NCBI RefSeq assembly: GCF_024499055.1
Contig: NZ_CP071249.1
Span: 1,279,001-1,343,000 of the forward strand
DNA: 64,000 nucleotides
From: Turicibacter bilis
GTDB lineage: Bacteria; Bacillota_I; Bacilli_A; MOL361; Turicibacteraceae
Direction: 5' to 3'
Of this stretch, positions 536 through 6,354 are shown one piece after another. Within the stretch, counting starts at the first letter, position 1. The number at the start of each line of letters is the position of its first letter. A program made the position numbers and the translations under genes. The notes under the pieces are model-generated. The model was given only the letters and a program-made list of their open reading frames with translations. It did not search any database and was not told where the DNA came from.

Positions 536-599
536 ACAAAAACTACATACCTTGTGAGTATGTAGCTTAGAACCTACTGGTGCTAGACCAATCTTATTA
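536..599 (-). ncRNA. Structured RNA-like element, copy A, with terminator hairpin
   Basis: Read on the minus strand: TAATAAGAT, then a small hairpin TGGT-CTAGC-ACCA, then AGTA, then the stem CTACATAC-tcacaag-GTATGTAG followed by TTTTTG. The second stem plus T-run looks like a Rho-independent terminator. The order of blocks (TAAT.AAGAT, CTAG loop, CCAGTA, ACATAC stem with identical TCACAAG loop, T-run) recurs in copy B at 691-762, while the stems differ in ways that keep pairing. This suggests two related small RNAs or one tandem-repeat RNA. Confidence 0.5.
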
Positions 600-690
600 G
601 TATTATATGCAAATAATAAACATTGGTGTGGTTCTATTTTTATTTTCTCCGATTAATTCTAGCTTATTCAAATACCTTTAAAATTAGAAC

Positions 691-762
691 AAAAAACACA
701 TACCTTGTGAGTATGTGCTCTTACTTTACTGGCGTATGTCTAGACATAGCCTATCTTCATTA
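691..762 (-). ncRNA. Structured RNA-like element, copy B, with terminator hairpin
   Basis: On the minus strand this reads TAATGAAGAT, a hairpin GGC-TATGT-CTAG-ACATA-c-GCC, the shared AGTA, then CACATAC-tcacaag-GTATGTG and TTTTTTG. The CTAG and TCACAAG loops match copy A while the first stem is longer and different in sequence. It lies about 80 bp beyond the stop of the PemK-like gene, after another 8-bp hairpin at 772-799 (ATCAAGAT/ATCTTGAT). It may serve as terminators for that gene, a tandem antitoxin-type RNA, or both. Confidence 0.5.
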
Positions 763-841
763 CTGATTTGTATCAAGATGGTACAAAATCTATCTTGATT
801 AAATTATATTATTTCTCTCAAGTTGTGTCAATCACTAATTA

Positions 842-1612
842 TTACTTTTTAAGTTCTCTTTTTAAATTTGCAAGTTCTAGGTTTATTTGTTTAATCAGTT
901 GTTCTTGATTAGTGATAGTATTTTGTAAATCTGTAATTTCTTTCTCTTTTTGAGCAATAATAGATTTCTGATTAGAAATCACATCTTTTAATTTTTCAAG
1001 TAACTCATCCTTTTTAGGAATATACTTTTTTAAAATAATATTATCAATCTCATTTAAGAGATTTTCTCGCAATTTGAATCGTTTTTTATTAAGTATGCGA
1101 TATTTACTTACGCGAGTTATTTGGTCCACCTGTATTACAGAATCCTTCTTAAATAGATAAAGATTTTTCTTTTTAGTAGTAGTGTTCGATTTTTGAGCAA
1201 ACACTTCAAATTCATGTATAATAGGCTTTCCCGTCGACTTGTCTTTTGTTGCAGCCGTAATAGGAGCTACAATAACCCAATCTTCGTTATTGTCATATAA
1301 GACAACACAAGGATGAGGGTAACGTATTTCAGTTCCAATATTACAAGTTCCTAAATCTACTAAAGAAATAATATCTCCACGGCTATAATTATAATAATTA
1401 TTATTTAACTGCTTATATTCATTTTGTATCCAAAGATCATGAATATGAGCATAATTTACAGTTCGTTCTAAATTACCTTGACTGAGCATTATATTCGTAT
1501 GAGCAAATACATTTTGTATTTCATGCAATGCTTCTATCGAAACAGAGGTAGACTGATTTTTATTGTATTTATTTTTTAGAGTATTTCGTAAATCATTGAT
1601 TAAATAGCTCAT
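842..1612 (-). CDS. PemK/MazF-like toxin with C-terminal coiled coil
   Basis: The protein has 256 residues. Residues about 78-200 resemble the MazF/PemK fold: RGDIISLVDLGTCNIGTEIRY (the usual GDIV...G-S-E...R-P segment), HPCVVLYDN, VIVAPITAATKDK, and late VIQVDQITRVSKYRIL, which matches the conserved strand before the last helix. Family members are sequence-specific endoribonucleases. The N-terminal 75 residues are helical and the last 50 (QKSIIAQKEKEITDLQNTI...) look like a coiled coil, making it longer than a typical MazF of about 115 residues. No small antitoxin ORF lies next to it; instead two terminator-like RNA elements follow. The ribosome site is weak (AGGGG). An alternative is a regulator that kept the fold but lost RNase activity. 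Confidence 0.55.
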   Translation of the reverse strand: MSYLINDLRNTLKNKYNKNQSTSVSIEALHEIQNVFAHTNIMLSQGNLERTVNYAHIHDLWIQNEYKQLNNNYYNYSRGDIISLVDLGTCNIGTEIRYPHPCVVLYDNNEDWVIVAPITAATKDKSTGKPIIHEFEVFAQKSNTTTKKKNLYLFKKDSVIQVDQITRVSKYRILNKKRFKLRENLLNEIDNIILKKYIPKKDELLEKLKDVISNQKSIIAQKEKEITDLQNTITNQEQLIKQINLELANLKRELKK

Positions 1613-2105: not shown

Positions 2106-2750
2106 TTAAGAAATTCCTTTACTTTTTAATTTTTTATTGATGTAATGTAAAATAATTCCTACATACTCTGTGTATTTGCCTTCCTGATTTAATTTTTCAA
2201 ACTTGTCCTTAGATTTTAATAAGTAAGGTATAGTATCTTTTCCTCCTTTTCCTTCATGGTATAAATGTTTCTTAAATTCATCTAGTACCGCTTTTCTATT
2301 AGTAACTAAATATCCGTGATAACAATTTAAATTCAAGTGTACATTTAAATCGTTATCAATTCTAGAATCACTAGATTTAATAATTCCTTGAGGAGTATAA
2401 CTAATAGTTTCAATATGCGTACTATTTTGAGGGTTCAAGTACAGGGTAGCGTTTTGTTTTTTCGTATCACATGTCGCTAAATGACTAGGAGATCCTTCAT
2501 TTCCTCTACAAACAATCATTAAATTAGAGTATTGTAATTGATTAGTACTATTTCTAGGTTGATAATGTTCAATCTTAGTATCTTTATAATCATTAATACG
2601 CTTCATACAATAAGCACAGATATAGCCCTGCTCTTTTAACAACTCAGTCCTTAATGAATCCTTATCTGCAGTCGATAATTCTTCAAAAATAGATTCTTTT
2701 CTATATTTTTTTAAGAATGCAGGAACAGGCCCCTTTTTTATCTCAATCAT
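2106..2750 (-). CDS. ptuB: Septu system HNH nuclease PtuB
   Basis: The protein has 214 residues with an HNH/RecB-associated nuclease arrangement: YICAYCMKRI (CxxC), then KIEHYQPRN (the H of the first HNH triad), then the N-rich NLMIVCRGNEG with further Cys and LATCDTKK. PtuB is the effector nuclease of the two-gene Septu anti-phage system. The ATG is seven bases after the ptuA stop, with GGGGAG in the junction, so the two genes are translationally linked. The N-terminal MIEIKKGPVPAFLKKYRKE motif is typical of this family. The function is assigned from motifs plus partner. Confidence 0.8.
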   Translation of the reverse strand: MIEIKKGPVPAFLKKYRKESIFEELSTADKDSLRTELLKEQGYICAYCMKRINDYKDTKIEHYQPRNSTNQLQYSNLMIVCRGNEGSPSHLATCDTKKQNATLYLNPQNSTHIETISYTPQGIIKSSDSRIDNDLNVHLNLNCYHGYLVTNRKAVLDEFKKHLYHEGKGGKDTIPYLLKSKDKFEKLNQEGKYTEYVGIILHYINKKLKSKGIS

Positions 2751-2757
2751 TTCTCCC

Positions 2758-4044
2758 CTACATCTCCTCTAATTCTAACGTAATCTTCGAACTTATGACT
2801 TCTTCATCATTACTTCCAAGAATATCTTCTAACTCATTCAGTATTTTTCGTGCATCCTCTAGTTTTGATTCTTCAATATAATCAGAAAAAGATTTCAATT
2901 TATCTAATATCTCTTTTGGCCTACTTTCTACAAGCATAATTTCTCTTAAAATCGAATCTACATCCCTTCCATATGTTTTATTCATAGGGGGATAAACTTG
3001 ATGATTATTCAACATGAGAATATTCTCTCTAGGTACATGACTTAAAACACTTGGGGAATGAGTGGTAAATAAAAATTGTACATTAGGGAAGATTTCTCTC
3101 AAATCATGAATAATTTTTTTTTGCCATGCAGGATGTAAGTGCATATCAATTTCATCAATTAAAATAATTCCTGGGGTTTCATTCACCTTCTCTAAAAGTT
3201 GAGGATTTAATAGTGCCATACGATAAGCAATATCAGCTACGACTCCAAGTATACCTTTAATCCCGTCACTCAACAAACGAGTGGGAAGAATCTCTCTACT
3301 TCCGTCCTTTCTCTCCATATAAATTTCTAAATCCTTTGTCTTCACATTAAACCTAAATTCAACATCTTCTAAATCTAGGCCAATACTTTGATAACATCTT
3401 TTCAAAGCGTCTTTTACCGCTTCTAATTCCGCTATCTTACTTCCTTCTTGTAATTGAAGATAGGTCATTTCCTCAAACCATTTTAACATTAGTTTTTCAT
3501 TAGCAGCTGCAGATAAACAATCTATATACCCATTCTGTCTTGCTAACCTTATAGCTGTATCTTTATTTTTTTTTTGTTTTTTTTGCATCCATAACCGTGC
3601 GGTTCCGTAATAAGAGACAATTGGTAAAATAATATTTTGATTTCCATGCATTAATTCTTCATTAAGTTGCAAAGCATAATTTTTTATTTGCTTTGTTCCG
3701 CTAACCGTCGTATTTCCACCTTGTCTATTTAAACTTCTAACCCAGAAAACGTTATCTCCATCAATATTTGCTCCCATTTCAATTGAAACAGGAAACTGTT
3801 GTTGGGGATCAATTCTGCTTCCAACTTCATAATACTTATAGTGAGCATCTTCATTATGAATACTATTCCCAGAAATATTACTAAATTCTGCAATATAACT
3901 TCCTAACCCTATAGAAATAGCTTCTAAAATAGAGCTTTTTCCAGCTCCATTTACGCCAACTAAAACAGTATAATCCTCATTAAAATCTATTTTTAACTCT
4001 TCAAAACATCTAAAATTCTTTATCTTAAGACTCTTTACTTTCAT
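2758..4044 (-). CDS. ptuA: Septu system ATPase PtuA
   Basis: An AAA15/RecF-like ATPase. The N-terminus KVKSLKIKNFRCFEELKIDF leads into the Walker A motif GVNGAGKSS at about residue 40. A signature-like LLSDGIKGILGVVADIA and Walker B GIILIDEIDMHLHP follow, then the switch THSPSVLSH. With a PtuB-type HNH gene immediately downstream this is the ATPase half of type I Septu, which restricts phage by nucleic-acid cleavage. I place the start at the ATG at 4044 because GGAG precedes it by seven bases; an in-frame TTG four codons upstream lacks such spacing. The length of about 428 residues is normal. Confidence 0.82.
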   Translation of the reverse strand: MKVKSLKIKNFRCFEELKIDFNEDYTVLVGVNGAGKSSILEAISIGLGSYIAEFSNISGNSIHNEDAHYKYYEVGSRIDPQQQFPVSIEMGANIDGDNVFWVRSLNRQGGNTTVSGTKQIKNYALQLNEELMHGNQNIILPIVSYYGTARLWMQKKQKKNKDTAIRLARQNGYIDCLSAAANEKLMLKWFEEMTYLQLQEGSKIAELEAVKDALKRCYQSIGLDLEDVEFRFNVKTKDLEIYMERKDGSREILPTRLLSDGIKGILGVVADIAYRMALLNPQLLEKVNETPGIILIDEIDMHLHPAWQKKIIHDLREIFPNVQFLFTTHSPSVLSHVPRENILMLNNHQVYPPMNKTYGRDVDSILREIMLVESRPKEILDKLKSFSDYIEESKLEDARKILNELEDILGSNDEEVISSKITLELEEM

Positions 4045-4492
4045 CAAACTCTCCAACTTTCCATTTCAAACTATTTCTAACATATCATTTCGATTCTAAA
4101 TATATCAGCAAATATATTATTGGAATTTATTACATTTCTATATTCAATAATACTTCGATTAAATTATCCTAATTAAGAAATAAATAATCAACCTTTCATA
4201 ATCGTTAGCTATTCTTTAAGTATCTACTTAATTGTAACCTATTCAAAGAGACAGGTCGATATAAAATTCTTTTTTCTATCTATTTTCTGACATAAAAAAT
4301 CGACCACAAACTTTAAGCTATAACATAGCCTAAAATTAATGATCGATATAGACACCTTTATATTATCTGTTAACCTTTAACACCATCTGTACACGTGAAA
4401 AGTTGACAGAATTGAATAATCTAAAAACTTAGAGAGAGTAAAAATCTTATCCATAAGCACGTACTATTACAATCTGTCAATCAGAGAAACTT
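4045..4492. other. Gene-free stretch between ptuA and glmM
   Basis: I see no credible ORF. There is a loose inverted pair GGTCGAT / ATCGACC at about 4254-4303 and an ATCGAT-containing block next to it, which could be insertion-sequence debris. The ptuA promoter must lie here, but no convincing -35/-10 pair stands out. Confidence 0.3.
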
Positions 4493-4539: not shown

Positions 4540-4881
4540 CTAAGCTAACTCTTTTTCAACGACTTCTAATAAACGACTCACGTAGCTTTCACATAATTTT
4601 TCTGTTTGTGCTTCGACCATGACACGAACGAGTGGTTCTGTTCCAGATGGACGAACTAAGACTCGACCTTTACCGTTCATTTCGGCTTCAATGTTTACGA
4701 TTTCTTCTAAAATCTTAACATTCGTCATCATGGCCATTTTATCTTCTACACGTAAGTTTTTCAGTAATTGAGGGTACTTCGGCATTTCTTTTGCAAGCTC
4801 AGCTAATGATTGCCCTTTTTCAACCACGATGTTTGCTAATTGCACGGCACTTAACATTCCATCTCCTGTTGTTCCATGATC
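4540..4881 (-). pseudogene. glmM: glmM segment 7 (C-terminal domain)
   Basis: Encodes DHGTTGDGMLSAVQ... to the stop: 113 residues with the phosphate-binding loop RPSGTEPLVRVMVE. An internal ATG at 4857 could be called as a 105-residue ORF, but there is no ribosome site and the homology continues upstream to the family B element at 4882. Confidence 0.85.
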
Positions 4882-5002
4882 TGTTATGAGTAGATCAATA
4901 TTTTACATTCTACACATCATGATTAAACACTTCATTCCTTTTAAATGAAGACTAACTATAGAATCCGTAACATTTTTGTTCCAAAAATGACGGATACTAA
5001 CA
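4882..5002 (-). repeat. Family B interrupting element, copy B2 (121 nt)
   Basis: Splits ATC TTC TTA | GAT CAT GGA (HLIFL-DHGT) precisely between codons. On the minus strand it begins TGTTAG and ends ATAACA. A 5' hairpin pairs AG-ATCCGT with ACGGAT-CT and ATTTTT with AAAAAT. The rest holds weaker hairpins CTTCATT/AATGAAG and GTAGA/TCTAC. The second codon read into the element is TAG. Confidence 0.85.
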
Positions 5003-5041
5003 TAAGAAGATTAAGTGTCCTGATTGTTCTCCACCAAAGTT

Positions 5042-5099
5042 ACACCACATGGGTGTCAAGTTGTTCTAATTTTCATCTAGTGAAAATAGAACAACTATG
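5042..5099 (-). repeat. Family A interrupting element, copy A4 (58 nt)
   Basis: Splits GGC TAT | AAC TTT (GNGY-NFGG) at a codon boundary. Hairpin 1 is AGTTGTTCTA / TAGAACAACT with inner stem TTTTC/GAAAA; hairpin 2 is ACACC-catgt-GGTGT. It has the best-paired stems of the four copies. Confidence 0.88.
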
Positions 5100-5123
5100 A
5101 TAGCCATTACCTAACATTTCTTC

Positions 5124-5247
5124 TGTTTTAAATAATGTTTGGATTTTTATATAATCTTCATCAGAAATAAACACTATCTCTTCTGTTAACTAAACCAACT
5201 ATAGTCGCAGTAAAATTTTCGTTCCACAAAAATTACGGCGACTAACA
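5124..5247 (-). repeat. Family B interrupting element, copy B1 (124 nt)
   Basis: Splits TAT GTG TTA | GAA GAA ATG (RYVL-EEM). It begins TGTTAG and ends AAAACA. The 5' hairpin pairs AGTCGC with GCGACT and GTAA with TTAC; a later stem CAGAA/TTTCTG is less certain. Only a 24-nt coding island separates it from A4. Confidence 0.85.
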
Positions 5248-5313
5248 TAACACATAACGGTCTCCAACTTTTGTTTGAACACTCTGTAATCCATGCGCTT
5301 CAACAGCATTGTA

Positions 5314-5371
5314 GCACCGCAAGGGTATCAAGTTATTCTAGCTTTCATAAAACGAAAGTAGAATAGCTATG
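5314..5371 (-). repeat. Family A interrupting element, copy A3 (58 nt)
   Basis: Splits TTA GGA TTT | TAC AAT GCT (LGF-YNA). Hairpin 1 is AGCTATTCTA / TAGAATAACT with inner stem CTTTC/GAAAG; hairpin 2 is ACC-cttgc-GGT. A TGA falls in frame within the element. Confidence 0.88.
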
Positions 5372-5530
5372 AAATCCTAAGTTACTCATCACGGTTGAAA
5401 CAACTGTTCCATGATTCAATAACCCTTTTTCATTTAAGTAACGCCCGACAATGAACATGATGTAATCTCCATCGATGATGGCTCCTGTATGATCAACCGC
5501 AATTAAACGGTCAGCATCGCCATCAAAAGC

Positions 5531-5588
5531 GCACCACAAGGGCATCAAGTTGTTCTAGCCTTCATACAGTAAAGGCAGAACAGCTATG
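5531..5588 (-). repeat. Family A interrupting element, copy A2 (58 nt)
   Basis: Splits TTA GGA TTT | GCT TTT GAT (LGF-AFDGD), just before the metal-binding DGDADR loop. Hairpin 1 is AGCTGTTCTG / TAGAACAACT with inner stem CCTT/AAGG; hairpin 2 is GCC-cttgt-GGT. The coding context TTAGGATTT is the same as for A3. Confidence 0.88.
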
Positions 5589-5748
5589 AAATCCTAAATG
5601 CGCTTCCTGCTTCACAACTTCCGTAGCTAACATTTCTGGATGAGTTGATCCACATGATTCATTAATATTAACTCCATCTGGTTGATGATAAATACTAACG
5701 ACTTCTGCGCCTAAGTCTTTAAATAGCTGAGGAGCTAATGTGGAACTT

Positions 5749-5806
5749 GCACCGAAAGGCACTAAGTTATTCTAGACACTCTCTTTGTTCGTGTAGAATA
5801 GCTATT
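5749..5806 (-). repeat. Family A interrupting element, copy A1 (58 nt)
   Basis: Splits GGG GC | A AGT TCC (NGA-SS), the only family A copy inside a codon. It is the most divergent copy: outer stem AGCTATTCTA / TAGAATAACT, inner stem CAC/GTG, hairpin 2 TGCC/GGT. It is still exactly 58 nt long. Confidence 0.85.
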
Positions 5807-6354
5807 GCCCCATTGGCACAATCTAAGACAACTTTTAATCCTGTTAATTTGTTAGAAATCGTCGTTTCTAAATGTTCAACGTATTCTTTAGCACCTAGAT
5901 GATAGTCTTCGACACGACCGATTTCGCCTCCAACTGGGCGTGGTAATTCATCCATCACATCCAGTAAAGCTTCAATTTCTTCTTCCTGGGCATCACTTAA
6001 TTTATACCCATTATGACTAAAGATTTTGATTCCGTTATCTTGCACAGGGTTATGTGAGGCAGAAATCATGATTCCAGCTTGAACATCTAAGTTTTTCGTT
6101 AAATAAGCCACTCCCGGTGTTGTAATGACACCAAGTTTTAACACATCAACTCCTGATGAAATCAGACCAGCCATTAAGGCCGACTCTAACATTTCACCTG
6201 AAATACGAGTATCTCGCCCAATCAATACTTTCGGACGTTCACATAAACTTTTTAATTGATACCCTAAAATACGTCCTAACTTTAAAGTGAATTCAGGTGT
6301 TAACTCTGTATTGGCAACACCACGAACTCCATCTGTTCCAAAATATTTTCCCAT
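5807..6354 (-). pseudogene. glmM: glmM segment 1 (N-terminal half)
   Basis: [12 protein letters not shown] starts at an ATG 37 bp after the glmS stop, with AGGAT about seven bases upstream. It carries the catalytic serine loop SASHNP and runs to VVLDCANG before element A1. Read without removing A1, translation ends 12 residues later. Confidence 0.85.

Follow-up and report, generated by a model that had tools for sequence, protein, structure and literature searches.

Within the window analysed here, a 64,000 nt stretch of Turicibacter bilis DNA (NZ_CP071249.1, positions 1,279,001 to 1,343,000), a gene for a long PemK/MazF-domain protein is followed on the same strand by a promoter-like site and two structured RNA elements, RNA A and RNA B, and a Septu-type pair (2106-4056, minus strand) lies next to this toxin locus. 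In window coordinates, the features are:

842-1612, minus strand: long PemK/MazF-domain protein of 256 aa (open reading frame list and Pfam)
803-831, minus strand: sigma-70 promoter TTGACA-N17-TATAAT, scoring 12/12 (promoter scan; position conserved in four related loci)
758-796, minus strand: RNA A, hairpin unit A1, with the predicted transcript start at ~796
720-757, minus strand: RNA A, hairpin unit A2, with a bulged C
692-722, minus strand: RNA A, closing hairpin with the conserved loop CUCACAAGG and a T-run, terminator-like
602-607, minus strand: possible -10 box TATAAT of RNA B (from sequence, with no good -35 at the usual spacing)
566-595, minus strand: RNA B, single short hairpin unit (found by covariance model R1, from whose build it was left out)
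540-568, minus strand: RNA B, closing hairpin with the loop as in RNA A, terminator-like
2106-2750, minus strand: PtuB-like HNH protein of the Septu-type pair
2758-4056, minus strand: PtuA-like ATPase of the Septu-type pair

The PemK domain of the encoded protein spans residues 78-193 (Pfam PF02452, 8e-12), preceded by a ~75-residue N-terminal extension and followed by a C-terminal tail predicted to form a helical coiled coil, as the original prediction had it. PF02452 (PemK_toxin) is the sole Pfam family above cut-off in the close toxin family, with no ToxN-type family found in that search and no ToxN-type chain among the PDB sequence matches of the protein, and the two structure predictions obtained were poor (mean pLDDT 52 and 40). 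MazF proteins usually carry an Arg-Pro near the active site; in this family His-Pro stands at this place (H99 of the window protein), the histidine also being kept in divergent proteins of Fusibacter (L007) and Metabacillus (L008). Judged by its family, the window protein is probably an endoribonuclease toxin. That the gene stands without a protein antitoxin, as had been claimed, is borne out by the window open reading frame list, which holds no frame of at least 50 aa between 1613 and 2105, and by the related loci described below, across which none is conserved.

The 12/12 sigma-70 promoter lies at 831-803, 10 nt after the toxin stop codon and on the same strand, and the promoter ahead of RNA B is poor. 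A 28-nt repeat occurs in two copies, at 536-563 and 689-716 (93% identical), both being terminator-like hairpins on the minus strand, with four terminator-like sites falling within 400-1900 compared with 0.3 expected in shuffles, and the folding energies of the RNA elements lie below those of shuffles (z -2.2 to -3.6). The earlier description of a two-copy structured RNA 3′ of the gene, each element ending in a terminator-like stem and T-run, therefore stands, and is filled out here by the shared strand, the promoter before the first element, and the division of the two transcript-like elements into two and one hairpin units. Of the two loops said to be shared, TCACAAG closes both elements, whereas CTAG is absent from the conservation among relatives and was rejected as coincidental.

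Close relatives of the toxin were found in a sister species (L004, 87% identical), in Fusibacter sp. 3D3 (L002, 62% in the best segment and 47% overall), on a Desulfosporosinus acidiphilus plasmid (L003, 47%), and on a prophage contig (L162, 50% identical to L003). The original prediction proposed looking for the RNA element beside other PemK-like genes, and it is present at these four further loci, all of which share with the window the order gene, promoter, RNA. The promoter falls 3-18 nt after the stop codon in 5/5 loci and scores 10-12 of 12, a score matched by 0-7 of 500 shuffles of the same 80 nt, with the predicted RNA start 38-53 nt after the stop codon, at the first unit, in every case. 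The upstream neighbours of the toxin vary between loci (those of L003 and L162 are different HTH-type proteins), such that no conserved protein antitoxin is apparent, and the downstream genes vary likewise, for which reason a role of the RNA as cis-regulator of the downstream gene was set aside. An integrase accompanies L002 and L162, L003 is plasmid-borne, and, judged by sequence, an AbiE-like pair adjoins L002.

The repeated hairpin unit, ~38 nt at the window locus, has the form AAGAKAGG-stem-bulged C-CCAGUA. Across loci it measures 30-47 nt and keeps, with few exceptions, AAGAKAG at its 5′ side and (C)CAGUA at its 3′ side, with the stem sequence free to vary and, in many units, one C bulging out just ahead of the three basal pairs; each RNA holds one to three units, two in several loci. 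Conserved alongside AAGAKAGG, the bulged C, and CCAGUA is the closing-hairpin loop CUCRMAAGG, which is present in all copies where a terminator would need none, and Bacilli and Clostridia have both loop and flanks in common. The stems, already thought to covary between the two elements, do so strongly: in five unit-plus-hairpin sequences, 10/18 pairs changed on both sides with pairing kept and 97.8% of cells paired, a result reached by 0/500 shuffles. With 18 distinct sequences, 13/18 pairs show double changes (95.5% paired; covariation 0.565 against 0.182), in an alignment that was fitted to the model and leans towards structure. No Rfam family matched the RNA at gathering or relaxed thresholds. 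Elsewhere in the window, glmM (4540-6354, minus strand) seems to be split by several short structured inserts, comprising a family of three ~78-nt repeats (5028-5105, 5300-5377, and 5517-5594) and what look like two copies of a different type of insert near 4960-5000 and 5200-5250, none with an Rfam match; such breaks are striking in glmM, normally an essential gene.

Covariance model R1, built from five copies with RNA B left out, recovers RNA B at 47.6 bits (E 1.2e-8). Across the window's genome and the rest of its genus, the only strong matches of R1 are the two here and two at the sister locus, with none in same-genus genomes that lack the toxin gene. Among 358 genomes of Fusibacter's phylum, strong matches occur only in two toxin-bearing genomes, namely Fusibacter and one holding a seemingly identical copy of the Desulfosporosinus plasmid locus; five weak matches (28-31 bits) lack the conserved loop and resemble ordinary terminators. 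Strong matches in the ~360 cellular genomes scanned are thus confined to positions beside the toxin, which argues that the RNA is no common terminator. The earlier caution that the elements might occur widely as ordinary terminators unlinked to this gene family is answered, in the genus and in these 358 genomes, by the lack of strong matches away from the toxin.

A scan of viral contigs by RNA pattern alone yielded 17 contigs. R1 matched every one of them, at E <= 0.003 as computed over those contigs, values flattered by the contigs having been pre-chosen by pattern. In one of these, L162, the toxin lies directly in front of the RNA; in the other 16 (L029, L092, L111, L125, L151-L161, and L163; up to 230 kb) no toxin was detected in the whole record, some records being fragments. 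A tblastn search of the phage collection with the window and L003 proteins gave no match, and with the L008 protein one weak match in an unannotated record. The 15-base loop pattern alone was discarded as a search, with many chance matches on viral contigs, for example within a coding region of L049. The RNA adjoins an HU-like gene in 15/16 of the toxin-less contigs, many of which are near-identical and bear names suggesting a shared sampling project, so that they represent only a handful of lineages. The RNA precedes the HU gene in some contigs and follows it in others, many contigs also have a PhoH-like gene nearby (families were checked for four proteins), and in L159 the RNA lies near phage lysis genes; no convincing RNA match was found in the SPbeta neighbourhood of a related HU gene. 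It is this gene context, common to diverged phage copies, that argues against chance. The closing hairpin of L029, L092, L111, and L125 keeps its loop, carries an extra bulged A four pairs below it, and has no T-run. Such phage RNAs could be what a trans-acting antitoxin mimic looks like, the rival view being that they do something for the phage that does not involve the toxin.

Three more divergent long PemK genes with an N-terminal extension, a second Fusibacter gene (L007) and genes of a Metabacillus (L008) and a Lysinibacillus (L020) plasmid, each have apparently structured RNA of a different sequence behind them:

L007, 2085-2312
L008, 2020-2165
L020, 2560-2665

The folds behind L007 and L008 have z-scores of -3.6 to -5.4, and the structure behind L020 is apparent by eye. 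A promoter-like site scores 10/12 in L007 and L020, reached by 33 and 29 of 500 shuffles respectively, with no clear site behind L008, and R1 finds no convincing match in any of the three RNAs. These loci are suggestive of a plan, a long PemK gene followed by its own RNA, that may reach beyond the window family.

The type III systems (ToxIN, AbiQ, CptIN, TenpIN; PMC5086642) are among the nearest tested precedents. They share with the window locus a toxin gene of ribonuclease type, tied to a short RNA of repeated structured units (~35-50 nt in type III) with a terminator, and mobile or phage-related contexts; phage RNA mimicry also has a precedent, in the mimicry of ToxI by phage phiTE, as cited in PMC5377504. 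However, the toxin here matches PemK/MazF (PF02452) without a ToxN/AbiQ, CptN, or TenpN family match, and where type III systems place antitoxin repeats and terminator upstream under one promoter, the RNA here is downstream with its own promoter in 5/5 loci. The tandem repeats that characterise type III are found here, though fewer and more divergent than those of ToxI, and whereas the type III antitoxin is pseudoknotted and binds and inhibits the toxin, the units here are predicted hairpins. The locus is thus similar to type III in anatomy and, given its toxin family and gene order, is not a member as that type is defined. The AbiF-RCd22 pair of a C. difficile phage, whose RNA of ~100-130 nt was shown to bind and neutralise the neighbouring toxin AbiF, is similar in having a short RNA with two hairpin motifs of 33-35 nt (~34 nt), a SigA promoter, and a terminator beside the toxin gene, and differs in that AbiF is a Cas13-related Abi_2 protein and RCd22 lies upstream of abiF and is co-transcribed (PMC12373285). 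The AbiF RNA family RF03085 gave no match in the relaxed Rfam scan. With type II MazEF/PemIK the locus shares the PemK/MazF domain; the protein is set apart by its length of ~250 aa and by the parts it adds at the N-terminus and as a coiled coil, and the adjacent protein antitoxin of those systems has no counterpart of at least 50 aa beside the window gene and no conserved one across loci. The Rfam 'pemK' RNA (RF02913) was rejected, giving no covariance-model match and differing in sequence and structure, so that only the name is shared; as a positive control, its members were recovered in 7/41 genomes of Fusibacter's family. Those members (L010-L016) were seen beside recombinase or sigma-factor-like genes, with no PemK-like gene next to them. 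Searches of open-licence papers turned up no account of a PemK under RNA control.

The simplest account of the RNA, two ordinary duplicated intrinsic terminators without special role, would explain the hairpin and T-run that end both elements, however it is very improbable given the consensus promoter between gene and hairpins, the covariation of the unit hairpin as well, the loop and flanks held from Bacilli to Clostridia, the several phage copies that retain the loop without a T-run, and the want of that loop in terminators picked up elsewhere. A type I system, in which the RNA would act as an antisense regulator of the toxin mRNA, shares the outline of a toxin gene next to a separately promoted small RNA, but the RNA lies on the same strand as that gene without overlap, and its longest complementarity to the toxin mRNA was no better than that of shuffles (89 and 14 of 100 for the two RNAs, Watson-Crick pairs only), on which basis antisense action was rejected and this reading given scarcely any credence.

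More weight attaches to the suggestion that the RNA is a working partner of the PemK-fold effector, as cofactor, guide, or sensor, in a ribonucleoprotein defence that would sense infection through the RNA. The conserved loops and single-stranded flanks resemble protein-binding sites, the protein carries parts beyond a plain PemK, and the sequence data fit binding and inhibition alike; we nevertheless consider it unlikely, as in the nearest precedents an RNA of hairpin repeats next to a ribonuclease toxin serves as antitoxin (PMC12373285, PMC5086642) and a decoy antitoxin is a simpler account of the phage-borne copies than a cofactor. Less probable again is that the RNA is a regulator of mobile or phage origin with its own function, to which its position behind the toxin gene is secondary. 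The 16 phage contigs without detectable toxin, 15 of them with the RNA beside an HU-like gene, favour such a role, whereas the strong cellular matches directly behind the toxin only, and the conserved spacing of promoter and start, do not, and, since the phage RNA can precede or follow the HU gene, it is no fixed leader of that gene.

The explanation that we favour, and regard as reasonably probable, is a toxin/RNA-antitoxin system working like type III with its parts in reverse order and a long PemK-type toxin. It draws on the five-locus layout, one locus of which was found from the RNA pattern alone, on strong compensatory covariation together with strong cellular matches only beside the toxin, and on the lack of both a conserved protein antitoxin and an antisense match to the toxin mRNA. 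It is further supported by the repetition of units of ~33-47 nt, a trait of type III antitoxins and RCd22 too (PMC12373285), by the mobile and defence contexts of the loci (Septu, integrase, plasmid, AbiE-like pair), and by phages that carry the RNA without the toxin, as counter-defence predicts. Counted against it are a toxin expressed before its RNA gene, contrary to known type III operons, the poor structure predictions for the protein, the number of toxin-linked loci of this RNA class, which is just five, and the possibility that the phage copies have a purpose of their own apart from the toxin. The original prediction of a variant toxin-RNA system is thus upheld as the best reading, with neutralisation of the protein by the RNA being what we infer.

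In the proposed mechanism, the strong constitutive-type promoter behind the gene would yield a short RNA of one or two hairpin units and a closing hairpin, which would bind the PemK-like protein, a probable endoribonuclease toxin, and hold it inactive. Following the type III precedent, a drop in RNA supply, such as a phage might cause by shutting off host transcription, would release the longer-lived toxin and arrest the cell, and the standalone RNA copies of some large phages may act as decoy antitoxins. A wider proposal, of a new RNA-antitoxin class in which long PemK-type ribonuclease toxins are each followed by their own promoter-driven structured RNA, the RNA classes differing by lineage, with free-standing phage antitoxin RNAs as counter-defence, is tentative, our judgement leaning slightly against it.

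Should this reading be confirmed, the PemK/MazF family, known for toxins neutralised by proteins, would gain an RNA-controlled branch with a gene order opposite to that of type III, and a conserved RNA absent from Rfam would gain a role. Natural phage-borne antitoxin RNAs would, moreover, make RNA-decoy counter-defence directly testable.
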